Notes under the pieces: generated by a model
The model's database searches: none
Seen by the model: only the letters and a program-made list of their open reading frames with translations
What the model was told of the DNA's origin: nothing
NCBI GenBank assembly: GCA_963920635.1
Contig: OY987307.1
Location: 6,533,535 to 6,597,534, forward strand
DNA: 64,000 nucleotides
Direction of reading: 5' to 3'
From: Pseudeuparius sepicola
Taxonomy: Eukaryota; Arthropoda; Insecta; Coleoptera; Anthribidae
Translations under genes and position numbers: made by a program
Shown here: one piece after another, positions 14,641 to 34,590 of the stretch
How positions within the stretch are numbered: the first letter of the stretch is position 1
Layout: each line of letters opens with the position of its first letter

Positions 14641-14646
14641 TTCATA
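14641..14646. repeat. Left target-site duplication of the provirus (TTCATA)
   Basis: TTCATA immediately precedes the first base of the terminal repeat and is repeated at 34585-34590 immediately after the last. Six-base duplications are the rule for Polinton/Maverick integration. On the minus strand the six bases form two codons of the interrupted transposase-like gene. Confidence 0.95.
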
Positions 14647-14660
14647 AGTAGTAAGACAAA

Positions 14661-14707
14661 GAGAGTTCTAAGCCAAACCTGTCAGACTTGTCTGGCTTAG
14701 AACTCTC
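14661..14707. repeat. Terminal-repeat hairpin, 15-bp perfect stem
   Basis: GAGAGTTCTAAGCCA at 14661-14675 pairs with its exact complement at 14693-14707 around a 17-base loop, 14 bases from the tip of the element. The same structure occurs at 34524-34570. Its place next to the end fits a role in terminal replication or integrase recognition, but that is inference. Confidence 0.85.
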
Positions 14708-14751
14708 ATAGGGTTTTGGTGGTGGGAGAGCTCCCCCACTCCAAGAATAGC

Positions 14752-14787
14752 TATATAGGTGCGTGTGGTTCAACTAAGAGCATCAGT
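14752..14787 (+). promoter_or_regulatory. Core promoter within the left terminal repeat (TATATA plus TCAGT)
   Basis: TATATA at 14752-14757 lies about 32 bases upstream of TCAGT at 14783-14787, the arthropod initiator, and the ATG at 14797 follows ten bases later. This spacing is that of a canonical RNA polymerase II core promoter. An identical copy sits in the right repeat. Confidence 0.7.
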
Positions 14788-14796
14788 GCAGCAAAC

Positions 14797-15090
14797 ATGT
14801 CCTTCTTAAATAATTTAAACAAGAATTTGTTGTTAAAAAATCTGGTGAACGTTCGAGATTTGGAAGTAAATGAAAAATTTGAGATTCAGAGTTTTAAGAG
14901 AATAAGTACTAAGTTTGGAGAGAAGGTGGTTGTGGAGTTTGCAGACTTCAAGACCATTCTGCCCCATCGGTTTACGGATGAACTAACTCAAGAACGAATT
15001 GACAGTTTGAATGGTGACAACAAAAGGTACTTTTTAACCAGCTTGGGCCCTGTCGGCAAATCGACTAATATTATTTTTTCTGAAGAATGA
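14797..15090 (+). CDS. Terminal-repeat gene, left copy, 97 aa
   Basis: The ATG at 14797 is chosen because it directly follows a TATA/TCAGT core promoter; a longer frame exists upstream but starts only at a non-ATG codon. The protein (MSFLNNLNKN...) has a strand-rich centre with the pattern FEIQSFKRISTKFGEKVVVEF. I have a recollection of similar short ORFs in insect Polintons but know no proven function. A small beta-barrel or ssDNA-binding fold is possible. The gene lies wholly in the terminal repeat, so it is present twice; the copies differ at six residues, all in the last 40 or so. Its stop overlaps the next ATG (ATGA). Confidence 0.7.
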   Translation: MSFLNNLNKNLLLKNLVNVRDLEVNEKFEIQSFKRISTKFGEKVVVEFADFKTILPHRFTDELTQERIDSLNGDNKRYFLTSLGPVGKSTNIIFSEE

Positions 15091-15188
15091 ACGAGAGACT
15101 GCGAAGTCATGTGGAGGAATTGAAAAAGCTGAAAACGATGGTTACTATGTACGAGATAAATAAAAAGTTTAGAAATGTAAAATTGTGA
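15087..15188 (+). CDS. Mini-ORF of 33 aa overlapping the terminal-repeat gene
   Basis: ATG at 15087 overlaps the stop of the preceding gene in an ATGA arrangement, typical of coupled viral genes. The 33-residue product is highly charged and probably helical (HVEELKKLKTMVTMYEINKK). In the right terminal repeat about 55 bases are missing here and only 11 codons remain, so only the left copy is intact. It may be a real small protein or a chance frame. Confidence 0.35.
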   Translation: MNERLRSHVEELKKLKTMVTMYEINKKFRNVKL

Positions 15189-15229
15189 AAATAAAAATAT
15201 TATTTGTTTGTATGTTGTTTTTTTAAACC

Positions 15230-15268
15230 TATATAAGAGGGAGTGATTGAATAAACTTGAGTCAATCT
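15230..15268 (+). promoter_or_regulatory. TATA plus TCAATCT promoter of the PLA2 virion gene
   Basis: TATATAAG at 15230-15237 is followed about 32 bases later by TCAATCT (15262-15268), which ends one base before the ATG at 15270. The penton-like gene has the same TCAATC word almost touching its ATG, so the two virion genes share this layout and would have leaders of only a few bases. Confidence 0.6.
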
Positions 15269-15269
15269 A

Positions 15270-16037
15270 ATGCTGCTTGTCAAAGGGAGCGGGTTGGTAA
15301 ACACATTAATTGACAAATTACCGGTTGAGTTACATCTTCCTGGTTACCAGTATTGTGGTCCCGGTACAAAGTTAGAAAAACGTCTTTCTAGAGGTGATTC
15401 TGGTATAAATAAAGTTGATTCAGCCTGTAGAATTCATGATATTGCTTACAGTAAAAGCAAATCTCTAGAAGAACGACACAAGGCTGATTGGGAACTAGAA
15501 AATCGTGCTTGGGACAGAGTCAAATCGAGAGACGCTAAATTTGGTGAAAAGACAGCCGCTTGGCTTATTACGACTGCAATGAAGGTTAAAAGGAAATTGG
15601 GCATGGGTATGAAACGTCCATTTTCATTTAGAAGAGACATTGTAAAGAAGGTTGAAAAAGCCCTAAAAAAATCCTATACTACCAATGAGTTGAACGATCT
15701 AAAAAAATTAAAAAAATCGTCTTTAGCGGCAGTGAGGGCTGCACGAGTTCAAATTAAAAAAATTGGTGGAAAAGGTAAATTAAAAATACCTAGAATTATT
15801 CCCTTCGAAGAAAAGAAAGGAGGTTTTCTTCCGCTTTTGCCTATACTAGCTGGTCTGAGTGCCCTTGGATCAATAGCCGGAGGTGCTAGCAGTATAGCTA
15901 AAACTATAATTGACGTAAATAATACAAAAAAGCTGATGGGGAATGGAAAGCAAGCTACGAAGATCATCGGTTCTGGACTCTATTTGCGGAAAAGTAGGCG
16001 TGGTTTCGGTCTTTTTTTAAAGAAACAAAAAAACTAA
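15270..16037 (+). CDS. Minor capsid protein with parvovirus-type PLA2 domain and pX-like hydrophobic segment
   Basis: A 255-residue protein. The PLA2 part has the calcium-loop signature GYQYCGPGT at residues 25-33 and the catalytic dyad in CRIHDIAY (His56, Asp57, with Tyr60). This phospholipase type is used by parvoviruses and adintoviruses to breach endosomal membranes during entry. A basic middle (KVKRKLGMGMKR) fits DNA or capsid contact. Residues about 184-215 form a Gly/Ala/Leu-rich hydrophobic stretch beginning GGFLPLLPILAG, like the C-terminal segment of adenovirus core protein X. The tail is basic. The stop overlaps the protease ATG by one base (TAATG), implying coordinated expression. 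All key residues are present. Confidence 0.88.
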   Translation: MLLVKGSGLVNTLIDKLPVELHLPGYQYCGPGTKLEKRLSRGDSGINKVDSACRIHDIAYSKSKSLEERHKADWELENRAWDRVKSRDAKFGEKTAAWLITTAMKVKRKLGMGMKRPFSFRRDIVKKVEKALKKSYTTNELNDLKKLKKSSLAAVRAARVQIKKIGGKGKLKIPRIIPFEEKKGGFLPLLPILAGLSALGSIAGGASSIAKTIIDVNNTKKLMGNGKQATKIIGSGLYLRKSRRGFGLFLKKQKN

Positions 16038-16396
16038 TGAAGCCACCCAACAGACCTTTATCCAACCTAGATTTAATTAGGTTTGCCCACGGAATTCCTT
16101 ATTTTAGAGGTGTGTATATGAGAGATACACTACCTAAAAAACCGAGAAAAAATGAGTCGGCCATTTTAAATTTGGATGTGCAGAAAAATTCCGGATCTCA
16201 TTGGGTGGCGTATCTCAAAAGAGGGAAAAGGTGTCAATATTTTGACAGCTTTGGCAATTTGAAACCCCCAAAGGAACTGATTCGATATTTAGGGAGTGAT
16301 ATAGAAGTATTTTATAACAATAATTCTTATCAAAACTATAACGAAACAAACTGTGGAAATTTGTGTTTAAATTTCTTAAAAAATGAGAACCTGTAA
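16037..16396 (+). CDS. Adenain-like virion maturation cysteine protease
   Basis: A 119-residue protein of the adenovirus-protease/Ulp1 clan. The ordered catalytic residues are visible: His55 in SGSHWVAY, Asp70 in QYFDSFG, Gln99 in SYQNYN as oxyanion residue, and Cys106 in TNCGNLCLNFL. In the family it cleaves capsid and core precursors during particle maturation. It is much shorter than adenovirus protease (about 200 residues) because it ends soon after the Cys helix, as is usual for small Polinton homologues. An AATAAA lies about 12 bases after the stop. It is translationally adjacent to the PLA2 protein, a likely substrate. Confidence 0.88.
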   Translation: MKPPNRPLSNLDLIRFAHGIPYFRGVYMRDTLPKKPRKNESAILNLDVQKNSGSHWVAYLKRGKRCQYFDSFGNLKPPKELIRYLGSDIEVFYNNNSYQNYNETNCGNLCLNFLKNENL

Positions 16397-16613
16397 TGTT
16401 TCTGTAGAAATAAAAATCTGAAAATATGAAGTGTGATTTTTCTTTTCCCATCCCCAAAAACGAGAGAAATGTATCTATTGTATATTATACTAAATAAACT
16501 AAAATATATTCATAATACACTTAATGCTAAGAAAACTTAATTTTAAAATAAAATATAAACATTTCAAATTAAAAGAATACACTTACATCTAAAATATGTA
16601 CATTATATAATTA

Positions 16614-17006
16614 TTATGCGAGTTTTCTTTTTATGTTCTCCATCTCCATAGCCTCTTTCTTATAGGTTTCGTTTTTTTTCTTTTCTCGTTGATAGCTCTC
16701 TCTTGTTGCTACCAGTTTTTTTTCCCAGACTGATATTTCTTTTCTTAATCGTCTCATCTCCCGCTCTGAATTTCTCACATCCTCTTTCACGCTTGAAATT
16801 CGTCCATCCACCAGGGCGTTCATCTCTCCAATTAATTCTCTAAGACTGCTACGAACATCATCCTTCGTAGAAGTGGGCTTAGATCCTAGGACATTTAATA
16901 AATTTAAATTTTTTCCGCCCCCTGGTCTTTTCGCTGATTCATGTTTCATTGTTTGTGATACCACTCTTGAGCTGGAAGGACGTGGTGACGCTGACGATAC
17001 GTCTAA
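16614..17006 (-). CDS. Spliced provirus gene, exon 4 (coiled-coil region)
   Basis: Final exon of a four-exon minus-strand gene (19273-19308, 17224-17271, 17063-17167, 16614-17006). All three introns are GT-AG with GTAAGT donors and all junctions are phase 0, which joins the exons into one 193-residue protein. This exon gives 130 residues: a Ser/Pro-rich lead (SSASPRPSSSR), GGGKNLNLLNVLGSKP, then a long charged coiled coil (REMRRLRKEISVWEKK). No family is recognised. It converges on the protease gene. It may be a virion structural protein, a regulatory protein or a captured host gene; the sequence does not decide. Confidence 0.7.
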   Translation of the reverse strand, partial: LDVSSASPRPSSSRVVSQTMKHESAKRPGGGKNLNLLNVLGSKPTSTKDDVRSSLRELIGEMNALVDGRISSVKEDVRNSEREMRRLRKEISVWEKKLVATRESYQREKKKNETYKKEAMEMENIKRKLA

Positions 17007-17062
17007 CTGTAAGAAGGAAACAAATTGAAGAACAGTGATTCGTTGTTGTAGAACTAACTTAC

Positions 17063-17167
17063 AGAATCGCTTTTGGAGTGTACTGAGACTTGTGCTTGCA
17101 GCGTCGGCTCAGCTCTCACCAGGGGCATCGGGACATATGGCTCAAACAATCTTTCGATATCTGTTAG
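17063..17167 (-). CDS. Spliced provirus gene, exon 3
   Basis: 105 bases, 35 codons, read LTDIERLFEPYVPMPLVRAE and onward. Acceptor tttatag and donor GTAAGT are good, and the flanking introns are only 56 bases each. Part of the four-exon gene described at 16614-17006. Confidence 0.7.
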
Positions 17168-17223
17168 CTATAAAAGCAAGGGGAATATTATTTATACAAT
17201 ATTATTTATTAGCACAAACTTAC

Positions 17224-17271
17224 AGGAGTCATTATTGTGGAAACAGCTTCTTCAATTTCAGCGTCAGTTGG
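17224..17271 (-). CDS. Spliced provirus gene, exon 2
   Basis: 48 bases, 16 codons (PTDAEIEEAVSTIMTP), between acceptor ttaatttcag and donor GTAAGT. Small but reading-frame-consistent with its neighbours; see 16614-17006. Confidence 0.65.
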
Positions 17272-19272
17272 CTGAAATTAAAAAATAATTTATAATACTA
17301 TATTTTTAACCAATCTAGTATATTTTAAAAAGTTCAAATTTTATACAACAGAGTCGGCTCTAGACGTACAGTGACAGTCAAAAAGTTGGAACCATGTTAG
17401 TTGAGTTCTAAAGTCAAATATGGCACACAAAAAAATTATTAGTTTTATACAGGGACCGGCACAAAGTTGCAAAAATTTAATATTTTTAAACTCTGATTTA
17501 GATTAATTTAAATTTGTTATCCGGTGATAAGTTACATTTGCAGTATTTTGTAATGCACAAGATGGTTGAAAAAATACAAAAAGTTTCTTTTTTTGACTAT
17601 GTGGTTATGACTTTAAATCTGACATCAGCCTTTGATTCCAAACAACTTTTGTAAGTAACTTTTGACTGTATTTTAAAAAATAAGGGTACTCTTATTTTGA
17701 CATATTGAATCTACCTCGTATCCGAAGAAATATTTAAATTTTGATGTGGACGTTTTGAGTTTGAAATGTTGCCTCAACTTTTATCGAGAATAAAATTTTC
17801 TCAGAAATTAATAATAAAAAAGTTTTCCAACTTTCTGCCGACCACTATATATTTTTTAAAAAAATTATCATTGTCAGAATTTTTGTCTGCACATAGGGGT
17901 AAAATTTCAACATTTTCAAATAACTTTTTTCGATAAAATCACAAAGCGTGTTTTGATCATTATTTAATTAAATGTCGTTTTGACAGGTATGTTAACATCA
18001 CAACGTTTAATGATTTCAAATCTTTTTGAAGCGGAGATGATCACCCCAGAGTAGTTTCATCTTAGCCCAAAAAATAAAAAACAATCCCATATGAATCCAG
18101 CTTTTGTCGGACACATATAATATTTTGGGTGAGATCTTCCCACGGATCGCAAGCACAACAGTGAACAAAAAAATGTGTCTAGACATATACTCATGGGGGT
18201 CCCACGGTCTGAGAATGTTTTCCTGTCTTAATTTGAGGTCTCAATTTTAAAATCTCCCCTTTATTGAACACACATGTGCATAAGTGGTTTACATGAGACC
18301 ATATTCCAGAGAGATATAGATTTACATCTTTTAAAGTCTGAGAATTTTAATAGGAATATGTAGTATGGATATACAGGGGGATTCAGAAATTACATCACCT
18401 TGAGAGATTCTTTTTAAATAAACTTTGTTTTTTACATGTTAAAATTATTGATTTTTTAATTCTAAAAACTACAAAAGATATTGATAACAAATTTTGGTAT
18501 GATACATCGAGTAAAGCAACAGTGTGAGAGTAATAGATTCAGTTTTAAAATATAAATAATAATAATTCTCTCCCTCGCAATGCTTCAAACTAGAAGTATG
18601 GCAGAAGCGCTTGTGCGGAAACAATTACTATTATTTTGTCTTCGTTATCATTTGCGACTTTTTTCCCGATAGAACTAGGATAGCATTCGCTCAAGTACTA
18701 CTGAAAACTCTAGAAAACCGTAGTAATTCCAGAACTACACCTGTTAATTTTTTAAGTAAACGGAAATGGTTCTCAATCATTCAAATTTGCAAAGTAACTC
18801 TCTGTAAATATATTTTTCCTAAAACAAAAAGCTAAGACCTTAAAACTAAAATCTCATCAAAGAGTATGAGCCCCATGTCAAACAGAATCGTTTTCTAAGT
18901 TTGTTAAAATTAATTTAACACTCTTTATAAAAAAACAAACCGATATATTTTATTAAAACTATTCACTTCATCTGACAAGTAAAACAGTTCAGGTCGATAC
19001 AGCTTGTTTTAGTAATAATTTAGTGATAACATTAAAACTATCACATTGTCAGAAAAATAATTCCTGTTTCTAAAAATAATGGAAAAACGATGGTTTTCGT
19101 GGAGTTTGTAAGACTCTGTAAATAAGATCTAGTGTTTGTAATAAAAGTTATTATGTAATTTTTATAGAAAGTATGAAGGTACTGTAATAAATTGCAAAGG
19201 CGATACAAAAGTTAAATTCAATAGTTTCAATTTATTAAAAATAAGAAAGTTTTGTAAAAAAATTCTACTTAC
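17272..19272. other. Large intron of the spliced gene with decayed repeat sequence
   Basis: No coding region was recognised. A stretch near 18560-18720 (ataataataattctc, then caagta about 120 bases on) resembles 22150-22270, so both belong to one repeat family. Short cagggac/caggggg words like MITE ends occur near 17450 and 18375. Confidence 0.4.
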
Positions 19273-19308
19273 AGCAGTCAGGTGTAGACTTGACGTGTTA
19301 GTTTTCAT
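19273..19308 (-). CDS. Spliced provirus gene, probable first coding exon
   Basis: ATG at 19306-19308 opens 12 codons (MKTNTSSLHLTA) ending at a GTAAGT donor in phase 0, which fits exon 2 after an intron of about 2.0 kb. TCAGT lies about 22 bases upstream (19329-19333, minus strand), suggesting an initiator, although no TATA stands at the usual distance. An in-frame ATG farther upstream (19384-19386) is an alternative start. This is the least certain exon of the four. Confidence 0.5.
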
Positions 19309-19687
19309 GCTGAAGCACAGAACACAAAACTGATCAAACTGTAGGTTCAAATTGATAATCAAATGACGATCCCTGTATATATGCATAACCCTTTCCACTG
19401 CATCGAGCTACCATTAACCTGCAATGAGACCATCTGCGTTGCCAAATCAACAGTCTGTTTGTCTTAGATATTCCCCAACTAGTCTCCCACCACGATTTTT
19501 CTGAACCAGTCAAAGAGTCAAATTTAAAGAAATAAAGTTAAGGGTGAGATCCCCTTCGTAACTGCATCCAATAAACATCCAGCATCTGCCGCCGCAGACC
19601 AAGATATCTAAGCGCAACGTTGCCAGATCAACGACGTTTTTTAAATGTTAGGGATGGTGCTCCCACTATATCATACTGGATCAAGAA

Positions 19688-19722
19688 TATAAAAGCGGGA
19701 TCCGGACGCTTTCACTGTTAGT
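19688..19722 (+). promoter_or_regulatory. TATA plus TTAGT promoter of the 175-aa gene
   Basis: TATAAAA at 19688-19694 is followed about 32 bases later by TTAGT (19718-19722), an initiator variant, with the ATG at 19753. It matches the core-promoter layout of other provirus genes. Confidence 0.6.
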
Positions 19723-19752
19723 TCCAAATTAAAATTTCATATTTTCTTTGAC

Positions 19753-20280
19753 ATGTCGGGTATACGATACATTATTGACGCTGACGGGTTTCAAGTGAAC
19801 GGAAAGTTTCTTACCAAGGAGTTGGCTATCTACGATTTAAAATCGCGCCAAGTCAGTTCTCGCTACTTCCGTGTGGGGTCATATAACTCACTCTCCTCTA
19901 AGGACGCCTGCAGTGCTCGTTGGGTTACGAAACATTTGCATGGCTTAAGATTCTCCGACTGTGAGACTGATGAACCTCAGGAAAACGTGATAGCAGTACT
20001 GAGAATCCTTGGTGAATCTGCTGGTAAGAATCTAATCAGCTATAAGGGCGGGCAGATCGAAAAGAATCTTCTGCAAGCAGCAGGGTACGGGCATCTAGGC
20101 TACAATATAGAACTTCTGGGCTGCCCCAAATTTGACGTTCTGGTTCAACAACAAAAGAAGTTCTACGAAAGTGTGAAAGTGAACCAATGCGAAAGACACG
20201 TCGTAAGTTGTGGAAAACCAGTTCATTGCCCGCGAGTGGAGATAATGTTCTTCGCTGAATTTGTGCGACGTACAATATAA
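19753..20280 (+). CDS. Provirus protein of 175 aa, possible RNase H-like fold
   Basis: Starts with ATG after a TATA/initiator promoter and ends before an AATAAA at 20394-20399. The N-terminus reads RYIIDADGFQVNGKFLTKEL, a strand-Asp-x-Asp-strand pattern as at the start of RNase H-fold nucleases. A middle block is NLISYKGGQIEKNLL and a C-terminal CGKPVHCPRVEIMFFAEF carries Cys and His residues that could bind metal. I recall this protein type as recurrent in insect genomes but know no function. An exonuclease-like or RNase H-derived role is inference. It lies alone in the centre of the provirus, divergent from the spliced gene. Confidence 0.6.
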   Translation: MSGIRYIIDADGFQVNGKFLTKELAIYDLKSRQVSSRYFRVGSYNSLSSKDACSARWVTKHLHGLRFSDCETDEPQENVIAVLRILGESAGKNLISYKGGQIEKNLLQAAGYGHLGYNIELLGCPKFDVLVQQQKKFYESVKVNQCERHVVSCGKPVHCPRVEIMFFAEFVRRTI

Positions 20281-21317
20281 AAATATGTGTTCTACAACCT
20301 GTAAATATTATTTTTAGTATTTATTTATATATTTTATATTTTTTGTATATTTTGTATATTATTGTATATATTTATATATTTTATATTTTGTATAATAAAA
20401 TTGAAAAACTAATTTGCTAAAAAGAAAACATACAAAGTGGGTATTAGTCAACTTTCAAACTTTACTGTGGGGATTGCTAGAAAACATAAAATAGTGTTCT
20501 AGTGGCGGTGTTTGAGTACCTTGAGTCATAAGCAAAAAGTAAAAAGTTCCCCCTCTCCTCAAAGATAATATGAACATTAGGAGACACTCGAAAATTGTAA
20601 ACTTCTGCCATAACGATGAATCAGTTTTTATAAAAAAATGTTCATATTCCAAACAATATAAAAAACAACTCCAAATCACAAAAAATAAGTAAACTTAAAA
20701 TTAACTAAGTATCTAATACATTAAATGAATCACTCCTTTTATTATTTATAAAAAACATAAAATATTCCATAGCAACAAAATAAAAAACCCCAATATCACA
20801 AAAGATACTTAAACTTAAAATAAAACTATCTAAGTAATAAAATTCTCAATTCAGATAATATTTTTCTTATGCATAGCTCCGCCACTGATTCTATATATAT
20901 ATATAGACAACTAACCGCTAGGGAAGTGAAACGCAAAGGATCGATGACAACATCCAGTCGTGTGACGGTGTCGCTAGAACCCTTTAATTAGTAGGTACTG
21001 AAACTAAGAGACGCTTTATCGCAATCCTAAGCGTCGATCGATAACCTACGTAGCGACGTGGGAGTACTGAAAATATCCGCTAGAGTACTCTGCTAGTACC
21101 GAAACGCTACGAAGCGGAGAATTATGGTAAATACGAGGGTGTGTAGACATAATGTAATGAAATTACAGATCAGAAAATCGTTAGAAATAGATACCTACAA
21201 ATTAGCATCGAGATACTCCAGATAACCAATGTTTGACAGAAATACAGGTGATGTTATGTAGTTCCAGCTCTATATAATTCCCTTTCTATAGATATTAAAA
21301 ATACTGCTAATATTGTA
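20281..21317. other. Gene-free provirus centre with AT-rich microrepeat
   Basis: 20310-20400 is a run of tatattttatatttt-type repeats just before the polyadenylation signal of the 175-aa gene. The remainder to 21317 holds no supported gene. An (AT)n run lies at 20896-20907. Confidence 0.5.
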
Positions 21318-22691
21318 TACAGGGTGATCATTTGAGCAACATATGGGATTTTTTTATTTATTGCACAACGAAAATACAAATATTCCCGGAAGTTGCTGCA
21401 TGTTTGATAATCATATTAGGCGCACTTAGAATGGACGCAAGTCAAACAGCATACAGGGTAGGTCAAAAAATATAAAAATTGTGCAGGAGTAAAGTATCGT
21501 TATTTCAGAAAATTCATCAAAATGTTGTCTAGAATTAAAAGTTATGCCTAAATACCAAAACATAACCTCCTAATAATATATCAAATTTCGCATAACTTTG
21601 TTCAAATTCAAGCATATTTGTAAAATTAGATTTTTTAGGGAATCACAAACTTCATGTTTGTTGCAAGGATATAATAATAATAATAGTAATAATGATAATG
21701 ATAATAATAATAACCAATGTTTAACAGAAATACAGGTGGCGTTATATAGTTCCGGCTCTATATAATTCCCTTGCTATAGATATTAAAAATACTGCTAATA
21801 TTGTATACAGTGTGATCATTTGAGCAACATATGTGATTTTTTTTTTTATTAATTGTACAACGAAAATACAAATATTCCCGGAAGTTGATGCATGTTTGAT
21901 AATCATATTAGACGCACTTAGAATGGACGCAAGTCAAACAGCATACAGGGTAGGTCAAAAAATATAAAAAGTATCATTATTTCAGAAAATGTTATTAAGG
22001 AAAGTTGTCTAGAATTAAAAGTTATGCCTAAGTACCAAAACATAACCTCCTAATAATATATCAATTTCGCATAACTTTGTTCAAATTCAAGCATATTTGT
22101 AAAATTAGATTTTTTAGGGAATCACAAACTTCATGTTTGTTGCAACGATATAATAATAATAATAATTCTCACCCTCACAATACTAGGAGTATGCCCAGAA
22201 GCAACCACGTGCGGCTAGGGTTGACTTTTCGCGAAATAACTAGGATAGCATCCGCTCAAGTATGGAAAACGACTCCACTGAAGCTACTTAAACAAAACTT
22301 TAAAATTTCGCAAAAATTCTTATGAACATGGTAAAACATTAGTAAGTAATAATGTGTATATTAAAAACTCTCATTTACGATGCAAAATTTTTATTTTAAA
22401 TGTTTATTAAGAAACTGAAAATTCATCAACGAAAAAAAAATTTTTTTTTTTCCTAGGAAGTTGAAATTTCTTTCCTTAGGCAGTTATGTTTTGGTATTTA
22501 GATATAGCTTTTAATTCTAAACAACTTTTCTTAATAACCTTTTGTCTTTTTATATTTTTTGACCTACCCTGTATGCTGTTTAACTTACAATTATTCTAAG
22601 TGCATCTAATATGTTACTGAACATGCATCAACTTTAGGCAATGTCTATATTTTGATTAAGTTCTATATTTTGCTTAAATGATCACACTGTA
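21318..22691. mobile_element. Long-TIR MITE with TA duplication, nested in the provirus, left arm duplicated
   Basis: Starts TACAGGGTGATCATTTGAGC at 21318 and ends with the complement of TACAGTGTGATCATTT at 22691, flanked by TA. The left arm together with upstream flank is tandemly duplicated (about 21229-21710 and 21713-22155), each unit containing ACAGGGTAGGTCAAAAA. The same family forms an element at 56260-57452. It carries no gene and is a later insertion into the provirus. Confidence 0.75.
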
Positions 22692-22972: not shown

Positions 22973-22978
22973 TATATA
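22973..22978 (+). promoter_or_regulatory. TATA box upstream of the DNA polymerase gene
   Basis: TATATA lies 52 bases upstream of the polymerase ATG (23030). No strong TCAGT initiator is visible at +30, so the start site is uncertain. Confidence 0.45.
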
Positions 22979-23029
22979 GGTTGTGATACCGCGGCATCTT
23001 GACACATTGCTTTAGTGCTTCGCTGCAAG

Positions 23030-26758: not shown

Positions 26759-26963
26759 AGTAGATGAATAAAAAATATATTTTGCAAATAGTGTTTCATT
26801 CCCTTCCACCCTGTACAACCATACCGAATCAGACATGGTGCCCTACCACATGATACATCGACAGTTGGTGCATGTGAAATCGATTGTGATATTAACGTCA
26901 ACATTCAGACGGTAATAATAGGTATCTGAATAAACAATAAAAGTCATATTTTTAATCATTGCT

Positions 26964-27596: not shown

Positions 27597-27612
27597 GGTA
27601 CCACTTAAAGCT

Positions 27613-28539
27613 CTACACGACGTTTGACTCAGAGATCCACGAATCATGCTCTTTATCAAAGCCCAACCATCGTACTAGCACCTTCCCCCTCTTTCTACGA
27701 AGCACCTTTTCAACCAGATATACATCAGGATATTCAGTCTTTTGTAATTCTTCACGATAAAATCCACCTTTTATTGGTCGACCGTTTAAATCCTCTAGCA
27801 AATATGTAGGTGGATTGGTAATTTGCACTTTCATTATTTTGAACAATTCTGTACTCCAGCTAGGCAAGTAACCTTTGGCAAATACATGTTTCTCTTTACT
27901 TATTCTTACAATATCTCCAACCTTAAATTTTCTACCTCTAAAAATCTTCACGTGACTATACACTTTTTTAAGCAGATATTGTTCATTGGTTTTATTAACT
28001 TGGCTAGGTTTCATTTGAATCACTCTATGTTGTCTGTTATTATACTCGGCAACTAGAGTAGGCAAATAATCATCCCATTTAAATTTACCATTTAGACTAA
28101 AATACTTAAATAATCGTTCCTTTAGAGTTCGTATCACTCTCTCGGCCATGGCGGCTTTCGTGACGCTAAAAGTGCTGTAATGATTAATTTTGAATTTTCG
28201 CATCAAATTTTGAAATCGAGAGTTATAAAACTCTTTGCCCTGATCAGTTTGAAGGTTGCGAGGCTTTCGAGTTCTCGATAGGATATCAGTGAAGGCGTTG
28301 GTAACATCTTCAGCAGACTTGGATTTGAGCGGTCTGCACCAAACAAATTTAGAGAAGCAATCGATTACAACCAGTATGAATTTGAAACCATTATTGTGAC
28401 TAGCATACTGATCTAACTGAGCGAGATCAGCTTGCCACAAATCGTCTAAACCTTTAATGATAGTTCGACGACGTGGATAATTTTTTCGAGTTGGTTTATG
28501 TAATTCCCTAACTACTTGAATTTTTTCTTTACTATGCAT
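27613..28539 (-). CDS. Retroviral-type integrase (DDE) with C-terminal chromodomain
   Basis: ATG at 28539 gives 308 residues; a longer frame starts only at a TTG. The catalytic core shows Asp38 in LWQADLAQLD, Asp98 in LQTDQGKEF and Glu132 in AMAERVIRTLK, a D-D(33)-E spacing. An SH3-like segment follows (FKVGDIVRISKEK). The end, DVYLVEKVLRR through VRWLGFDKEHDSWI, is a chromodomain as in Polinton integrases, probably guiding insertion to chromatin. The usual N-terminal HHCC zinc module is not encoded in this frame, since the protein starts just ahead of the core. The ATG overlaps the stop of the upstream fibre-like gene by eight bases. It would catalyse insertion producing the 6-bp duplication. 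Confidence 0.9.
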   Translation of the reverse strand: MHSKEKIQVVRELHKPTRKNYPRRRTIIKGLDDLWQADLAQLDQYASHNNGFKFILVVIDCFSKFVWCRPLKSKSAEDVTNAFTDILSRTRKPRNLQTDQGKEFYNSRFQNLMRKFKINHYSTFSVTKAAMAERVIRTLKERLFKYFSLNGKFKWDDYLPTLVAEYNNRQHRVIQMKPSQVNKTNEQYLLKKVYSHVKIFRGRKFKVGDIVRISKEKHVFAKGYLPSWSTELFKIMKVQITNPPTYLLEDLNGRPIKGGFYREELQKTEYPDVYLVEKVLRRKRGKVLVRWLGFDKEHDSWISESNVV

Positions 28540-28936
28540 GACTAGCACCCTCAAGGATCTCTACTACTCTGAGAGACAGTAAGGATTGCATACGCTTACC
28601 ACTTATTTTTAAATAATAATCTTCTATAGTTTTAATCAACTCTCTCAATTCATCGATCTTATCTTGAACATTGGCTATCATTGTGTTGCGAATATGAAGA
28701 TCGCATTCCTCAGTATGCTGTTTAAGATTTGTGTAAAAATATTGTAATGCATGAATAACCCCATCATCGACATATTGTTTTGTGCTGGCATCGCTGTCAT
28801 CGATCGGGGGATTAACGTTGCTCAGTCTGCGGTTGTTACAATCATAGTTTCCTTCTAGATTCAAATTTAATGTGTAAACAGGTGGGCAAGACCTGTTCTT
28901 GGGTCTTGAAGCACGTCCGAACTTGTTTAAGGACAT
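28532..28936 (-). CDS. Fibre-like coiled-coil protein, second tandem copy (134 aa)
   Basis: Begins MSLNKFGRASR. The segment GNYDCNNRRLSNVNPPIDDS through DASTKQYVD has the layout of N-terminal motifs in phage tail-fibre and head-fibre proteins. A helical region suited to trimeric coiled coil follows (VQDKIDELRELIKTIEDYYL). It is clearly paralogous to the upstream gene at 28978-29301. The role as an attachment or vertex protein is inferred from motif and from location in the structural gene cluster. It lies between its paralogue and the integrase, overlapping the latter by eight bases. Confidence 0.6.
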   Translation of the reverse strand: MSLNKFGRASRPKNRSCPPVYTLNLNLEGNYDCNNRRLSNVNPPIDDSDASTKQYVDDGVIHALQYFYTNLKQHTEECDLHIRNTMIANVQDKIDELRELIKTIEDYYLKISGKRMQSLLSLRVVEILEGASHA

Positions 28937-28977
28937 CTTTTAACTGGCTTGAATGGTTCATTATGGTGCTAAATCGA

Positions 28978-29301
28978 TTAATTTGGGAGTTGACCGGACT
29001 GTTCATCATCCATTTTTAAACAACACTCTTTGACAATTTTAACAAATTTTCTTATTTCATCTATCTCTTTCTCGAAAACGTCTTTCACGATAGTCTCAAT
29101 ATTAACATTATGTTGTTCGAGAATGATGTTAAACGTTTTGAATGTTGCATTGATTTGTTTGTCCGCATATTGCTTTGTGCCAACATCATTGCTGTTAATA
29201 GGATAATTAACGTTGCACAGTCTGCGGGTTTTGAAATCATAATTCCCGTCATTCAAAGAGGGACTAGTCCTTGAAACACGTCCGAACTTGTTTAAAGGCA
29301 T
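28978..29301 (-). CDS. Fibre-like coiled-coil protein, first tandem copy (107 aa)
   Basis: Begins MPLNKFGRVSR and contains GNYDFKTRRLCNVNYPINSN then VGTKQYAD, matching the paralogue at 28532-28936 over its first 60 residues. The helical tail has diverged (KEIDEIRKFVKIVKECC). It lacks about 10 residues present in the second copy near the start. Tandem duplication followed by tail divergence is what one expects of attachment proteins that diversify, but no receptor-binding head domain is visible in either. The gap to the upstream gene is 22 bases. Confidence 0.6.
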   Translation of the reverse strand: MPLNKFGRVSRTSPSLNDGNYDFKTRRLCNVNYPINSNDVGTKQYADKQINATFKTFNIILEQHNVNIETIVKDVFEKEIDEIRKFVKIVKECCLKMDDEQSGQLPN

Positions 29302-29323
29302 CTTACAAATAACATGCTGTAAG

Positions 29324-30253
29324 TTAGAGAATAATTTTCGCTTCTTTCAACTCATTGATTATTGCGGTTATTTCGTTTTCATGGGAAGTATTTCCGGCAT
29401 CTTTTGATGCAATTAATAACCTTAATCTCTCTACAAGTTCATTAGGATCATCCCAGAAAACATATTCCACAGGCTTTGTGTTATACTTGAGGTGCATGCC
29501 GGAACCCTTCACAGGTGTGGAGGTAGCCACCGGACCTTTCATTAGAGGTTTAATAATATTAATGTACTTATTTTTATAGCTAGATTTTAATCGTCCGTTT
29601 GAAGTAAGGTGAACACCAGTGAGATTTAAAATATCTCTGTAACTTTTCAAATCATCGTTAGTATTTTTTGGATTATTATAGAAAATTAGCTGGTAGAGAC
29701 CATCTGTTCCCGTGAATCGATTATTGTTGATGATTATGTCACCAGACACTTTTTCAAAATCAATATCCTTATTTCCTAGCATCCATACAGATTTGGTTTC
29801 GTCATACTTAGGACCATATGCCCTATCGATTTTAAGCGAATTATCCATAAAGTCTGTTACATACGGTATAGCTACTTTAGGATACACAGTATCAAAATGC
29901 CTGTACACTTTGTCAATTCCTTTCTCAACATCATTTAACGTTTCATTCATTTCTCCCAAAAGTGCAACTGGACTTTTCAACGACTCGCGCCACTTTTCCA
30001 TAAATGATTCAACTTTCGGTTCAACTTTGTGTTTTTTTACTTCCGGTTTTAATTCTTGCTTAACTTGTAGATTTGCTAGAGAGCTTGTCACAGGTTTGAA
30101 AATTTTTTTCAAAGTTTCATCCTCATCAAATTTACCTATTTTTAATGCTGTATATTTTTTTCTAATCGAGCGAGCTAGTTCGCTGATTTTCTTTGCGCGC
30201 TGCGCTTCTTGAATCTGTTCTTGCATCGACATCTCGATTAATAATAAGAGCAT
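29324..30253 (-). CDS. Conserved arthropod Polinton protein (DUF8207-like), about 309 aa
   Basis: Three in-frame ATGs occur at the start (30253, 30232, 30226); MSMQEQIQEAQ at 30232 looks most natural. Residues 10-120 are helical and charged. The block NRFTGTDGLYQLIFYNNP and the C-terminal YVFWDDPNELVERLRLL with GNTSHENEITAIINELKEAK are signatures that I associate with DUF8207, a family frequent in arthropod Polinton-like ORFs. The function is unknown; location directly after the ATPase and before fibre-like genes suggests a virion or assembly role. It is eight bases from the ATPase stop. Confidence 0.7.
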   Translation of the reverse strand: MLLLLIEMSMQEQIQEAQRAKKISELARSIRKKYTALKIGKFDEDETLKKIFKPVTSSLANLQVKQELKPEVKKHKVEPKVESFMEKWRESLKSPVALLGEMNETLNDVEKGIDKVYRHFDTVYPKVAIPYVTDFMDNSLKIDRAYGPKYDETKSVWMLGNKDIDFEKVSGDIIINNNRFTGTDGLYQLIFYNNPKNTNDDLKSYRDILNLTGVHLTSNGRLKSSYKNKYINIIKPLMKGPVATSTPVKGSGMHLKYNTKPVEYVFWDDPNELVERLRLLIASKDAGNTSHENEITAIINELKEAKIIL

Positions 30254-30261
30254 TGTGGTTA

Positions 30262-30981
30262 TTATAACGTTATATACCTATCAAATCCTATTCTATATCG
30301 ACCCTCATTCATTTTGAAATCTTTGACAATAACCAGCGTTCCAAAATTATCATTCCAACAGAGCGAGCAGAGATTCTTGAAGTCTCCGTATGAGATGTCT
30401 GGTGACACATGCTCGTCAAAAATATGTTTAAGATTCACATCATCTTGTTTAAACAAAACGATTATATTACAGTTGTCTCTTATTAATTGCTTAGGTATTT
30501 TTGAATATGTCTGGCAGAGATATGCAGCATCTATATTTTTATGACGACCCATGGAGTAATATTCTCTAATTTTTTCCTGTGTCCCACAAGCCACATCATC
30601 GAAAATAAAAATTGAATTTTCTCTAGCCTCTGATGGTGCAATGACGTCATCGTTTGAGCTAAATGGAAAATATCCAACACATTTTGCTTCTTTAAGCACG
30701 TCTTGTAGTAACTGATATTTAGGTTGATATAGCGATTTACTGTAAAGGTAGATGTTCTTAAATTTTAAGCCATTCTCGTTGAATATTAAACTAAGTAGAC
30801 TGTTTGTTTTACCACAACCGCTAGGACCGCAAAATATTGCTCTAATCGAGTTTGGCAAAAGCAAGCCATGTTTAGATTTCTCACTTCGAGCAAAATCTAA
30901 ATTTTCTATTGGTAAAGATAGTTGATGTGGTTCGATGTGCATCTTGTAAACATCTAAAAATATAGCATGTGCTTGTCTCAT
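30262..30981 (-). CDS. FtsK/HerA-type (A32-like) genome packaging ATPase
   Basis: A 239-residue protein with Walker A GPSGCGKT at residues 52-59 and Walker B SIFIFDDVA at 123-131. A downstream AYLCQTYSKIPKQLIRDNCN block contains the sensor-like Gln expected in A32-type packaging ATPases. In Polintons and related viruses it pumps genomic DNA into the capsid. The size is usual. The ATG at 30981 abuts a TATATATATA run on the upstream side. It heads the ATPase, DUF8207-like, fibre-like, integrase series. Confidence 0.92.
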   Translation of the reverse strand: MRQAHAIFLDVYKMHIEPHQLSLPIENLDFARSEKSKHGLLLPNSIRAIFCGPSGCGKTNSLLSLIFNENGLKFKNIYLYSKSLYQPKYQLLQDVLKEAKCVGYFPFSSNDDVIAPSEARENSIFIFDDVACGTQEKIREYYSMGRHKNIDAAYLCQTYSKIPKQLIRDNCNIIVLFKQDDVNLKHIFDEHVSPDISYGDFKNLCSLCWNDNFGTLVIVKDFKMNEGRYRIGFDRYITL

Positions 30982-31058
30982 ATATATATATATCGGGATG
31001 TAAATAATAAACAGTTTTCAATTAAGAATATTTATTTTCTACAACTATTACAATAAAT

Positions 31059-31481
31059 TTAAGGAATGTAAACTCGAATCTTCTGTTGCACAATACTCCT
31101 ACACAGCGGGCACTTCTCCATGGAGTTTGCACAACCCATACAGCATGCCAAATGTCCACATGGAACTGACAAGACTTCTATGTTTTTGCAGTAGCATACT
31201 ATACATAAAAAGTCTGGATTGACAATGTCAACTTTTTCAGGTGGGATGTCCACAGGCTTGATTTCACCTTTAATGAACGGGCAATTGGGACTCCAGCTAG
31301 CATGATCTTGCCATGGATCATCATTCTTTTCCCATTTATATCCTTCAATATTGCAAAATGGACATTGGACAACATCTTCATAATTCGTATAAAAAAATCC
31401 AGCTCGAGCAAGCTTTTCTGCTAATAGGGGGCTTGACCAGTTTTCAAACGTTCTTATAAGACTCTCGTAATTACGTTCCAT
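31059..31481 (-). CDS. Inhibitor of apoptosis (IAP) with one BIR and a RING finger
   Basis: A 140-residue protein. The BIR (residues 10-70) shows RTFENWSSPLLAEKLARAGF, the zinc ligands Cys40, Cys43, His60 and Cys67, and a DDPWQDHASW core. The C-terminal RING has Cys93-x2-Cys96, Cys108-x-His110, Cys114, Cys117 and Cys124-x2-Cys127. This single-BIR plus RING layout matches short viral IAPs of insect DNA viruses, which block caspases and ubiquitinate partners. It is presumably a captured host gene used to delay cell death. Its ATG overlaps the end of the upstream membrane-protein gene by 28 bases. All ligands are intact. Confidence 0.92.
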   Translation of the reverse strand: MERNYESLIRTFENWSSPLLAEKLARAGFFYTNYEDVVQCPFCNIEGYKWEKNDDPWQDHASWSPNCPFIKGEIKPVDIPPEKVDIVNPDFLCIVCYCKNIEVLSVPCGHLACCMGCANSMEKCPLCRSIVQQKIRVYIP

Positions 31482-31879
31482 TGCTCACTCAGTAATATTC
31501 TTACTATTTCAATAAATAATTTTGCTACTAACAAGGAAGAACATATAGTAATGTAGTAAATGAGTGGTACAAATGCGAGATCTTTTATATGATGATCTTG
31601 AGTGGGGAGCTCTCTGAGCATGTCCATTGTGGGTATGGTGAAATGTGGAATCTCCCTCCACACAGTTTCAACAGTCGTATGGTTTTGGAATACTGCATGA
31701 AGTTTAAATTGAGTAGCATTTTTGGATAGTCTTGCTACTGAAATTTTTTCAACTACCGCCTTAAATGGGAAACATTTATCCCGCTCGCAAATAGATATCT
31801 TAGTATCTTCTGGGTTGTAAATATAGAACACATTATTTATTAGTGGGAATAATATAACGTGACCCAGTCTCAGCAACAT
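31454..31879 (-). CDS. Putative membrane protein of 141 aa
   Basis: ATG at 31879 follows a TATA/TCAGTT promoter. The C-terminal part (residues about 98-130) is a strongly hydrophobic LAFVPLIYYITICSSLLVAK segment, a likely single membrane span. The N-terminal part could be a small beta domain with two Cys (ICERDKCFPF) and NxT glycosylation sites (NAT, NHT). No family is recognised. An external N-terminal domain with C-terminal anchor would fit a glycoprotein or immune-interaction protein, but this is inference. It sits between the major capsid gene and the IAP. Confidence 0.55.
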   Translation of the reverse strand: MLLRLGHVILFPLINNVFYIYNPEDTKISICERDKCFPFKAVVEKISVARLSKNATQFKLHAVFQNHTTVETVWREIPHFTIPTMDMLRELPTQDHHIKDLAFVPLIYYITICSSLLVAKLFIEIVRILLSEQWNVITRVL

Positions 31880-31888
31880 CTTAATTAT

Positions 31889-31919
31889 AACTGAAATGTG
31901 ACAATGTTCTTTTATATAG
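31889..31919 (-). promoter_or_regulatory. TATA plus TCAGTT promoter of the membrane protein gene
   Basis: On the minus strand TATATAAAAG (about 31910-31919) precedes TCAGTT (31889-31894) by roughly 30 bases, and the ATG at 31879 follows ten bases later. It lies just after the major capsid stop. Confidence 0.65.
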
Positions 31920-31929
31920 ATATGTGGTT

Positions 31930-33147
31930 CTACATTAAATCTCGTACAGTTTCACTCAAGGGCAAATATTCCATGGCACAGTCATGAACAATTATGCAGT
32001 AGGCTCGAGTTTTATCAGGAAAACCATTGCTGTTTTCTATGTCCAGCTTAACGTCAACTGTATTTATTTTTATAGATTCATTCCGGCGAGAACAATCTAT
32101 AACAAACAGGGTTGCATTATTTTTGTAATCTGCATAGCTAAGTAGCGGTCGACTCTCCATCGCATTCATGTAACTTGGATAAAATTCAACATAATTGTGA
32201 TAGGCGTCCAGAAAGTCATTACCAGCAAAATTCAGCCTCTGACGTTCGAATGGAAAATATTCACCGTTTACAATTAATCTTACATCAGTCGTATTTATGT
32301 GGTCAAATGTCGTGGGGTCAGTTTTAGAATCTTCATTCCGATTAGTCTGAAATCCAACGATGACGTATCGAGGGGTTGACACTGCTGACGATGATTTTAC
32401 AGCCCATATTTCCCTTTGGGCGTTTACAGTAAGATTTGGTAATTCGTGTAGCTCCCACTTGCGGAACGCAATTATAATTGGACGATCAATTTTTATAGAT
32501 TTAAGGAGATCCAATCTAATCATATCATTCGGCTGAATATGTTTAACCTTTAGTTCAATGTTGGAAATTGTTATTTCAGCATCGGCATCTGCACCTTGTA
32601 GCAGCAAAGCATTGTTATCATTTCTAGCTCGCGTCAATCTCAACGTCTGTTTACCGCAAATTGCCAGCTGATAGTCGTTGAATATCCCAAACAAATGTTT
32701 TAGCGGAATCCTTACATTGAATGTTCCATCATTGTTAACAGCAAAAGATTTATTAACCCCAACCCAGCTTGCTGTTGACATACATTTTTCATCATTAGCA
32801 GTATAGCAAAGATATGATCTAATCGTGCTCACAATTCCCGGGTTTCTCACCACCTCAATCTCTTTACCATTTAGTTCGTAAGAAACAGAATCGAAGAGAA
32901 ATGCGGCACCATTGTTGGCTAATGTACAATCGCCGGTAGCAGATTTCTTAGTCACTTTTCCTTTGACAAAAATCGATGCGTCAAACATTAACAACCATGC
33001 GTCACCCTGATTAATGGTTATTTCCACAATATCATTATTCCTAAATGACTTTACAAATGGGTAATAGGTACGCTTCTCTAAGCGTTGAATAGATTCGTCA
33101 TATGTGGGTGTGCGATGCACATTAAACACTTGAGGTGTTAAGGACAT
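31930..33147 (-). CDS. Major capsid protein candidate (double jelly-roll, hexon-like)
   Basis: The ATG at 33147 is chosen; the frame extends six bases upstream only to a TTG. The 405-residue protein is beta-rich throughout. An N-terminal block (FRNNDIVEITINQGDAWLLM, then FLFDSVSYELNGKEIEVVRN, then GIVSTIRSYLCY) is a pattern that I associate with Polinton major capsid proteins. The second half repeats a beta-rich layout (RLIVNGEYFPFERQRLNF, ending in DCAMEYLPL), consistent with a second jelly roll. The assignment rests on motif memory and on position next to the penton-like gene. It overlaps the preceding small ORF by 26 bases. Confidence 0.78.
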   Translation of the reverse strand: MSLTPQVFNVHRTPTYDESIQRLEKRTYYPFVKSFRNNDIVEITINQGDAWLLMFDASIFVKGKVTKKSATGDCTLANNGAAFLFDSVSYELNGKEIEVVRNPGIVSTIRSYLCYTANDEKCMSTASWVGVNKSFAVNNDGTFNVRIPLKHLFGIFNDYQLAICGKQTLRLTRARNDNNALLLQGADADAEITISNIELKVKHIQPNDMIRLDLLKSIKIDRPIIIAFRKWELHELPNLTVNAQREIWAVKSSSAVSTPRYVIVGFQTNRNEDSKTDPTTFDHINTTDVRLIVNGEYFPFERQRLNFAGNDFLDAYHNYVEFYPSYMNAMESRPLLSYADYKNNATLFVIDCSRRNESIKINTVDVKLDIENSNGFPDKTRAYCIIVHDCAMEYLPLSETVRDLM

Positions 33148-33286
33148 AACCAAGCGCTTTCAAAAATTGTTGATTTTCCAACGAGAGACGATCTGCACTC
33201 TTCGATGATTTACTCACTAGTGAATTTTTAAAGCATTGTGATTGACTTTTATACGGGTGATATCTGCCACCAAAAACCAAAACCAT
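33122..33286 (-). CDS. Small conserved-looking protein of 54 aa between penton and capsid genes
   Basis: ATG at 33286 (MVLVFGGRYHPYKSQ) starts 16 bases after the penton-like stop and the frame ends 26 bases inside the major capsid gene. Tight packing on both sides suggests a real gene. The C-terminal part, RLSLENQQFLKALGYVL, resembles a short motif that I recall at the ends of other small Polinton proteins. No function can be given. A longer frame to 33310 uses only a GTG. Confidence 0.5.
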   Translation of the reverse strand: MVLVFGGRYHPYKSQSQCFKNSLVSKSSKSADRLSLENQQFLKALGYVLNTSSV

Positions 33287-33302
33287 CTCTATAGCGAAAT
33301 TT

Positions 33303-34013
33303 TCATACACGCTTCAACTCCAACCGCACAATTATTTCCTCGCCTCTAAAATTTACAGGTTGAAAGTTCTGATCGAGAATAGTTAGCGTTAAATTATTAA
33401 TCTCACGCTTTGCAACTGGCATGTACACCAAATTTTTCGGAGACTCGTCTATGGCGTAACCAGGATCACAGCTAACTGCAAACTCGTAAATCGTATGAGT
33501 TGGTTGATTTTTATAGTATGCTCCAGATGTTACGTTACAATCTATATGTATAGTTCTGACCTTCACGATGTTTACAGATATGTCGGAAGTATGCAATTGT
33601 CCAGACTCTAATCGTGTAGGAGAAAACCCTAACACATGACCAATAGAGTCTGTTGGTAGAAAATCTACTGTATATTTATCACTGTAAATTTCACACTGTA
33701 AGGTACTATTATTAGCCTTTATTGAAATTGGATTTTTCTGATCAGATTCCTCTTTTCTTAAAGCTCGAACTATGTAATCTTCTAAGGCTTCAATTTCATA
33801 CGACCCTGTGGGAATAACTAAACATTTCCGATATCCATCAGCGTTTATATAATAAAATTTATTGACACCAACATCTATATTGGGTATGCTGTTATATGTG
33901 TGAAATCCTAGCAGTGCCAAACCATACTCAAAATCTGGTTCTAAATGTATAGGAATATTAAAGTCAATAGAAAGTGTGGAAGTAAAACCTTGTAGGGTGA
34001 ACAGCAGCGACAT
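33303..34013 (-). CDS. Penton-like minor capsid protein (single jelly-roll)
   Basis: ATG at 34013; 236 residues. The protein is beta-rich with blocks typical of Polinton penton proteins: FEYGLALLGFHTYNSIPNID near residue 28, VNKFYYINADG, IPTGSYEIEALEDYI, DSIGHVLGFSPTRL, HTIYEFAVSCDPGYAI and a C-terminal FRGEEIIVRLELK. In the group it closes the five-fold vertices of the capsid. It is the first gene of the leftward cluster and has a TATA/TCAATC promoter directly upstream. The reading frame is intact. Confidence 0.85.
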   Translation of the reverse strand: MSLLFTLQGFTSTLSIDFNIPIHLEPDFEYGLALLGFHTYNSIPNIDVGVNKFYYINADGYRKCLVIPTGSYEIEALEDYIVRALRKEESDQKNPISIKANNSTLQCEIYSDKYTVDFLPTDSIGHVLGFSPTRLESGQLHTSDISVNIVKVRTIHIDCNVTSGAYYKNQPTHTIYEFAVSCDPGYAIDESPKNLVYMPVAKREINNLTLTILDQNFQPVNFRGEEIIVRLELKRV

Positions 34014-34049
34014 GATTGATGAATTCCAACCTCAAGTACCACTTTTATA
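34014..34049 (-). promoter_or_regulatory. TATA plus TCAATC promoter of the penton-like gene
   Basis: On the minus strand TATAAAA (34043-34049) lies about 32 bases upstream of TCAATC (34014-34019), which touches the ATG at 34011-34013. The layout equals that of the PLA2 gene at the other end. Confidence 0.6.
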
Positions 34050-34140
34050 GCCCCCCAAAAATATTAGTAAAACACACACAAACAAATAATATTTTTATTT
34101 TCACAATTTTACATTTCTAAACCTTCATATAATGTTGCTC

Positions 34141-34434
34141 TCATTCTTCAGAAAAAATAATATTAGTCGTTTCGCCGACAGGGCCCAAGCTGGTTAAAAA
34201 GCGCCTTTTTTTGTCACCATTCAAACTGGCAATTCGTTCTTGAGTTAGTTCATCCGTAAACCGCTGGGGTAGAATGGTCTTGAAGTCTGCAAACTCCACA
34301 ACCACCTTCTCTCCAAACTTAGTACTTATTCTCTTAAAACTCTGAATCTCAAATTTTTCATTTACTTCCAAATCTCGAACGTTCACCAGATTTTTTAACA
34401 ACAAATTCTTGTTTAAATTATTTAAGAAGGACAT
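34141..34434 (-). CDS. Terminal-repeat gene, right copy, 97 aa
   Basis: Second copy of the gene at 14797-15090, with an identical promoter (TATATA/TCAGT within 34444-34479). It differs at six residues, all in the C-terminal 40 (for example LPQRF for LPHRF, and KKRRF for NKRYF). Seven of the eight base changes alter the protein, so the two copies may be drifting or specialising. The small overlapping ORF that follows in the left copy is truncated here. Function unknown. Confidence 0.65.
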   Translation of the reverse strand: MSFLNNLNKNLLLKNLVNVRDLEVNEKFEIQSFKRISTKFGEKVVVEFADFKTILPQRFTDELTQERIASLNGDKKRRFLTSLGPVGETTNIIFSEE

Positions 34435-34523
34435 GTTTGCTGCACTGATGCTCTTAGTTGAACCACACGCACCTATATAGCTATTCTTGGAGTGGGGGAG
34501 CTCTCCCACCACCAAAACCCTAT

Positions 34524-34570
34524 GAGAGTTCTAAGCCAGACAAGTCTGACAGGTTTGGCTTAGAACTCTC
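34524..34570. repeat. Terminal hairpin, right copy
   Basis: Exact counterpart of the 15-bp-stem hairpin at 14661-14707, again 14 bases from the element tip. Confidence 0.85.
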
Positions 34571-34584
34571 TTTGTCTTACTACT

Positions 34585-34590
34585 TTCATA
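34585..34590. repeat. Right target-site duplication of the provirus (TTCATA)
   Basis: Identical to 14641-14646. After it, the minus-strand transposase-like frame continues upstream, in phase with the part at 13391-14640. Confidence 0.95.

Follow-up and report, generated by a model that had tools for sequence, protein, structure and literature searches.

Does the provirus-like element in this stretch of the genome of the beetle Pseudeuparius sepicola (Coleoptera, Anthribidae) stand alone as an old relic, or does it belong to a viral family that has recently multiplied in its host? The stretch analysed, hereafter the window, comprises 64,000 nucleotides of contig OY987307.1 (assembly GCA_963920635.1, positions 6,533,535 to 6,597,534), and the element occupies window positions 14647-34584 (19,938 bp), with exact ends and TTCATA on both flanks. 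We conclude, at a probability of roughly 0.93, that it is an integrated eupolintovirus (Polinton/Maverick, formerly adintovirus) of a family recently amplified in this insect genome; the family is perhaps still active.

Structure and gene content of the window element

Several features place the element among the Polintons/Mavericks (Table 1). Its two 444-nt terminal inverted repeats (TIRs) both open with the tip motif AGTAGT, an AG-type end motif as given in PMC8097293, and a 6-bp target-site duplication (TSD) flanks the window copy and 18 of the 19 other copies with both ends located. The element encodes an RVE integrase, a double jelly-roll major capsid protein (MCP), an FtsK/A32 ATPase and a family B polymerase (PolB), which is of the protein-primed type by family match, protein priming itself being predicted. 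The initial annotation, made from the sequence alone, had described a Polinton/adintovirus-type provirus with exact ends and open core frames; the 444-bp repeats and TTCATA pair bear out the former, and the open frames for polymerase, integrase, ATPase, capsid, IAP and others the latter. Profile searches upheld its labels for polymerase, integrase, ATPase, PLA2, MCP and IAP, but left the protease below cut-off, the fibre-like frames with weak matches and the penton-like frame with no family match. The last of these, which we take to be penton-like from its position, has no supporting family or structure match.

The 16 listed frames cover 12,669 of the 19,938 bases, and all are open in the window copy. 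Both gene blocks face inward from the repeats: the left arm reads rightward (TIR gene, PLA2-like, protease, 175-aa frame, PolB), and the right arm leftward (TIR gene, penton-like, MCP, 141-aa frame, IAP, ATPase, 309-aa frame, two fibre-like frames, integrase, 227-aa frame). A few further unlabelled frames of at least 90 aa lie on opposite strands. Pfam searches of the tested frames matched no helicase family, and neither the TIR gene nor the 175-aa frame had relatives in the protein database search. The C-terminus of the integrase resembles a chromodomain (Chromo E 2e-4; 21.5 bits, below the cut-off of 25.1). PolB, which has no sequence match in PDB, contains a region that aligns to the PolB of one IMG/VR contig; here Cys261 and His347 of the window protein fit the described vOTU motif by eye, and the aligned contig protein is without the motif His. 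This distant contig was the sole yield of IMG/VR scans for MCP, TIR gene, integrase and PolB, and a tblastn search of a phage collection with MCP gave no match. Among the matches listed for MCP, named beetle MCPs are 39-54% identical, and the nearest, unnamed, is 76% identical.

Copies of the family in the host genome

The assembly searched (769 Mb in 16 contigs) includes the window, and all copy counts are scored places among first-look candidates and thus lower bounds. MCP was scored at no fewer than 103 places (of 2,324 candidates), 101 of them without a stop. At least 27 of these, at 98-100% identity, form the subfamily of the window copy (25 without a stop), and at least 76, at 91-92%, form a second subfamily, all without a stop. 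With the outer 314 nt of the TIR, at least 40 places were scored (of 877), 27 identical and 13 with one change as judged by scores; they appear as 80 matches because the hairpin described below matches itself in reverse. For PolB, at least 37 places were scored (of 4,021), 35 without a stop. They comprise 13 places at 100% identity, of which 12 are free of stops, two wholly stop-free groups of 17 (86-87%) and 6 (85%), and a single place at 94% that has five stops. These identities suggest at least three subfamilies. IAP was scored at 150 places or more (of 1,099), 148 without a stop, and many of these adjoin second-subfamily MCPs. A complete copy, which had been regarded as exceptional, is therefore a common sight in this genome.

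In the window's subfamily, the ends of 27 copies were read piecewise. The right end was placed in all 27 (terminal bases are missing from the match in three), and the left end was also located in 20, the window copy included. Nineteen of these 20 carry a perfect 6-bp duplication, and the 19 hexamers all differ from each other. These shared exact ends with their own duplications support the recent copying that had been proposed. On contig C6, two right ends lie 18.8 kb apart (4427807-4465927) with an identical outer hexamer, one of them without a located left end; they are probably a local duplication that includes part of a provirus. Full-length frames are open for the right TIR gene in 25, the penton-like gene in 22 and MCP in 25 of the 27 copies, and for the left TIR gene in 15, the PLA2-like gene in 12 and the protease in 12 of the 15 other copies with both ends read; all six end genes are open in 10 of these 15. 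Four shorter copies are within the counts of 27 and outside those of 15.

One second-subfamily copy was read at both ends. It is 17,614 bp long, with 584-bp repeats at 99.7% identity and CGCATA on both sides. The PLA2-like gene lies in the polymerase arm of the window copy and in the capsid arm of the second subfamily, so genes have moved between arms. Two second-subfamily MCPs (L061 and L062, contig C2, 18.74-18.75 Mb) stand in opposite orientation about 11-12 kb apart.

Within the window's subfamily, the four shorter copies measure 16.9-17.4 kb and are flanked by perfect TSDs. The central part was read in three of them: all three lack the PolB gene, match the window copy again from position 26936 onward and have, to the left of this point, a repeat that is related to the mariner-type repeat of the window copy but diverged (83-87%). 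These three are about 2.6 kb shorter than the window copy, which is less than the stretch missing, and they must therefore also hold sequence that was not placed. None of the four is among the scored PolB matches (at least 37 of 4,021 candidates). Because one shared structure occupies three insertion sites, the polymerase-less form has itself moved, which suggests that polymerase was supplied by other copies, that is, mobilisation in trans.

Selection on the genes

The ratio of nonsynonymous to synonymous substitution rates (dN/dS) was estimated by the Nei-Gojobori method between the window copy and three MCP, two penton-like, two TIR-gene and two IAP sequences; sequence was retrieved for 16 of the 76 MCP places of the second subfamily. 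Between subfamilies, dN/dS is 0.088-0.096 for MCP (dS 0.47), 0.089-0.099 for the penton-like gene (dS 0.27-0.28), 0.105-0.118 for the TIR gene (dS 0.56-0.63) and 0.214 for IAP (dS 0.22). These low values, from the kind of comparison across copies that had been proposed, indicate that the genes were under selection while the lineages spread, IAP less strongly. One IAP relative at 96% identity runs counter to them, with five nonsynonymous changes and one synonymous. The unequal dS of neighbouring genes may reflect recombination between subfamilies.

The strongest competing explanation is a transposon that moves only within the cell, makes no particles and carries its capsid genes as passengers. 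It would account for the many copies in one genome, for the spread of polymerase-less copies, which would need only a supply in trans inside the cell, and for the within-subfamily MCP ratios of 0.14-0.48, although such higher ratios are also expected if integrated copies drift. However, passengers should not show dN/dS of about 0.1 between subfamilies, as MCP and the penton-like gene do, nor remain without a stop at nearly every scored place, as do MCP and IAP, the latter often beside second-subfamily MCPs. We consider this explanation unlikely, if still a serious one: selection on the capsid genes argues against virion-free transposition and does not prove particles.

Age of the amplification

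The two TIRs of the window copy differ at eight positions, all in the inner 130 nt. The same left (L) type recurs in all 15 other left TIRs, and the right (R) type in 25 of 27 right TIRs, that of the window included; in the remaining two copies (23 and 24), which are old and degraded, the right TIR fits L as closely as R or a little more closely, at 8-10 mismatches. The eight differences are thus inherited and predate the burst, and we rejected them as a measure of the age of this copy. Compared with the L and R types, the 15 other copies carry 19 substitutions in 13,320 bases (0.14%), and six have none, one of these having a 1-base indel. The window copy defines the types and was left out of this count (with it, 19 in 14,208). 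Insect mutation rates are 2.8-3.5e-9 per base and generation. At these rates, the mean time since the shared TIR type comes to some 0.4-0.5 million generations, the youngest copies being more recent; the sample leans young, as copies without a located left end and the four shorter copies are not in it.

The nested mariner-type repeat lies in a mostly non-coding region (16.4-23.0 kb), and its end, at up to two mismatches, matches 11 times in the window versus 0.32 expected. A jump into the element after this insertion was rejected, as 12 of the 15 other two-ended copies measure 19,881-19,943 bp. With lengths so near the window's 19,938 bp, the repeat was probably carried along with the element and would predate the burst, a conclusion drawn from copy lengths and not from its sequence in other full-length copies. 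The stretch of a possible second repeat (17446-19379) was found in one other copy at 99.6%.

The idea that the element is an old fossil, preserved intact by luck, at first suggested by the eight TIR differences and the nested repeat, is refuted, since the same L and R types occur in other copies, the copies are near-identical, and differences arisen after insertion would predict about six nonsense changes in 12.7 kb of coding sequence and, if indels are a tenth of substitutions, about eight frameshifts, none of which is seen. An assembly artefact or contaminating virus is scarcely credible, as nothing was found in its support and the copies, spread over many large contigs, have TSDs of their own and differ in their host flanks.

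A number of observations nevertheless weigh against a recently amplified, integrated eupolintovirus. The family is known here from genome DNA alone, and transposition without virions could also give recent copying. One copy (C5) has unmatched outer hexamers, the left end was not found for 7 of the 27 copies, and the six end genes are not all intact in 5 of the 15 other two-ended copies. The dN/dS values come from few copy pairs and not from a tree, and the higher within-subfamily MCP ratios rest on few changes. Finally, the protease and penton identifications are weak by sequence.

Organization of the terminal repeats and proposed mechanism

From the tip inward, each TIR contains AGTAGT, a hairpin, a TATATA/TCAGT pair and a 97-aa gene, whose stop codon coincides with the inner TIR edge. 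The two hairpins are the only ones of their kind (spacer up to 40) in the whole window, and the fold of the first 130 nt of the element has a z of -3.55. Compared with the second subfamily, 10 of the 15 stem pairs are the same, four show compensatory double changes and one is broken. Sliding the partner leaves 0 or 1 compensatory pairs, and a shuffle control reached the observed value in 36 of 500 trials (two sequences only), so the compensatory changes support, rather than prove, that the hairpin is conserved as a structure. Its tip (14675-14692) holds two similar 9-mers, AAACCTGTC and AGACTTGTC, whose order is swapped in the second subfamily; they are possible protein-binding repeats. TATATA begins 31 nt upstream of TCAGT, TATATA and TCAG are retained in the second subfamily, and we infer from these motifs a promoter of the TIR gene. 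The second subfamily also has the TIR gene, in both TIRs of the copy read at both ends. A single-sequence model of the protein (pLDDT 38.7) was too low in confidence and not used; as a guess, the protein may bind the ends in replication or act in early regulation. That the two TIR genes of the window element diverged under positive selection was considered and rejected, seven nonsynonymous changes and one synonymous being too few to tell.

In adenoviruses, a trinucleotide repeat lies at the very end of the genome and is jumped back over during protein-primed synthesis; parvoviruses have a hairpin near the end. The element resembles the former in the trinucleotide repeat at its tip and the latter in its hairpin, but this starts 14 nt inside. 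By its family, the polymerase would start DNA synthesis from a protein primer at the AGTAGT ends and then jump back over the repeated AGT, and the hairpin could act as a recognition or regulatory site. The identical TIR promoters would drive the two inward gene blocks, with the TIR gene first in each. TSDs and the rve gene point to an integrase that would insert linear DNA at staggered 6-bp cuts. Double jelly-roll capsids would carry the DNA between cells or hosts, particles being predicted from capsid genes under selection, and IAP would delay cell death. A vOTU domain has been proposed to free the terminal protein (PMC11071308), which fits the PolB alignment of the window, in which Cys261 and His347 are judged by eye to be in place.

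Intact copies may also move polymerase-less ones. Taken further, the ends could form a control module, in which a hairpin origin and a repeat-encoded protein, present once per end, act on the ends, together with a helper-satellite system within one genome, where polymerase-less, capsid-keeping proviruses depend for their copying on intact relatives from several subfamilies resident alongside them. We offer this combined proposal tentatively and think it doubtful as a whole.

Further features and flanking sequence

The left flank contains a fragment of a Transib-type, RAG1-related transposase (8671-9090, minus strand; PDB 6pqn, which we take to be Transib, E 8e-29; Pfam RAG1 E 3e-4). On the other side, a 941-aa open frame (49401-52226, minus strand) with a weak match to tyrosine recombinases (phage integrase family) is possibly a Crypton- or DIRS-type element. 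DUF7869 frames occur on both sides of the provirus (13391-14452 and 38769-39452, both minus strand), perhaps as another repeat family near the insertion site.

Table 1. Features of the provirus and its target site (window positions)
Feature	Positions	Strand	Evidence or remark
Left TSD, TTCATA	14641-14646		pairs with 34585-34590
Left TIR, 444 nt, starts AGTAGTAAG	14647-15090	+	L type, as at 15 other left ends placed
Terminal hairpin, perfect 15-bp stem	14661-14707	+	starts 14 nt inside tip
Core-promoter-like TATATA (14752-14757) and TCAGT (14783-14787), upstream of TIR gene	14752-14787	+	right TIR identical here
97-aa gene in left TIR	14797-15090	+	dN/dS 0.105-0.107 versus two second-subfamily copies
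PLA2-like protein with weak adenovirus protein-X-like part	15270-16037	+	Phospholip_A2_4 E 4e-14; Adeno_PX E 0.001, under cut-off
Adenain-like cysteine protease, weak	16037-16396	+	Peptidase_C5 E 0.0036, under curated cut-off
Possible second mariner-type repeat (TATACAGGG.../...CCCTGTATA), weak	17446-19379		score 22 versus null 95% 21, 99% 25
175-aa frame	19753-20280	+	frame only
Nested non-autonomous mariner-type repeat; TA duplication, internal tandem duplication	21316-22693		repeat ends
Family B DNA polymerase, 1242 aa	23030-26758	+	DNA_pol_B_2 E 3e-26
227-aa frame	26964-27647	-	frame only
Retrovirus-like integrase, chromodomain-like C-terminus	27613-28539	-	rve E 1.7e-14
Fibre-like frame 1	28532-28936	-	tail-fibre families, weak
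Fibre-like frame 2	28978-29301	-	tail-fibre families, weak
309-aa frame	29324-30253	-	frame only
A32/FtsK-type packaging ATPase	30262-30981	-	Pox_A32 E 3.8e-10
IAP, one BIR and RING	31059-31481	-	domain matches
141-aa frame, hydrophobic stretch close to C-terminus	31454-31879	-	frame only
Double jelly-roll MCP	31930-33147	-	family match and fold
Penton-like frame	33303-34013	-	label by position
97-aa gene in right TIR	34141-34434	-	dN/dS 0.117-0.118 versus two second-subfamily copies
Right TIR, 444 nt	34141-34584	-	R type at 25 of 27 right ends, window's included
Terminal hairpin, right end	34524-34570	-	perfect 15-bp stem
Right TSD, TTCATA	34585-34590		pairs with 14641-14646

Relation to known elements and significance

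The comparison with known systems draws on the available parts of the papers cited. Intact vertebrate Mavericks (PMC8097293) share with the window element (AGT)2//(ACT)2 ends, the 6-bp TSD, inverted repeats much like its own in length, two inward modules and genes for PolB, integrase, ATPase and MCP, their protease having a weak candidate counterpart here; their size range of 12.7-24.6 kb includes it. They differ in gene order and accessory genes, and neither a TIR gene nor a terminal hairpin is mentioned in the part of that paper available. It describes 134 intact elements in 17 vertebrate species, up to 38 per genome; this maximum was counted on eight genes and ours on single genes (MCP without a stop at 101 places or more), so the two are not strictly comparable. 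The Eupolintoviridae, as the Adintoviridae have been renamed (PMC12451622), share by description (PMC12451622, PMC11071296) the hexon-type MCP, and the integrase end, a PolB region and the penton-like frame of the window element are candidate counterparts of their chromodomain, OTU-like domain and penton gene. Data from the Colorado potato beetle have yielded over 1,000 annotated contigs of such elements (PMC9963324), and Drosophila samples complete or near-complete genomes (PMC8363768). A preprint on Curculio weevils, whose theme is captured Rickettsia DNA, describes a recent proliferation of young Mavericks in beetle genomes, as seen here (PMC13419823), and nematode Mavericks carry genes between species (PMC10680173). 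Our literature search returned no title on point for a gene in Polinton TIRs, IAP in Polintons or non-autonomous insect Polintons, by which we do not claim their absence from print. The kind of element and its abundance were thus already known; what was not met in the parts of the literature compared are hairpin ends that bear a gene and a mobile form that lacks the polymerase.

To ask the open question of whether the Polintons of animals continue to produce virions, one needs animal cases with recent activity. With more than 100 close copies in at least two subfamilies, mostly open in the genes scored, in a 16-contig insect assembly, insertion polymorphism, expression, particle content and host silencing become measurable, and the conserved TIR gene and hairpin provide a handle on how the ends work.

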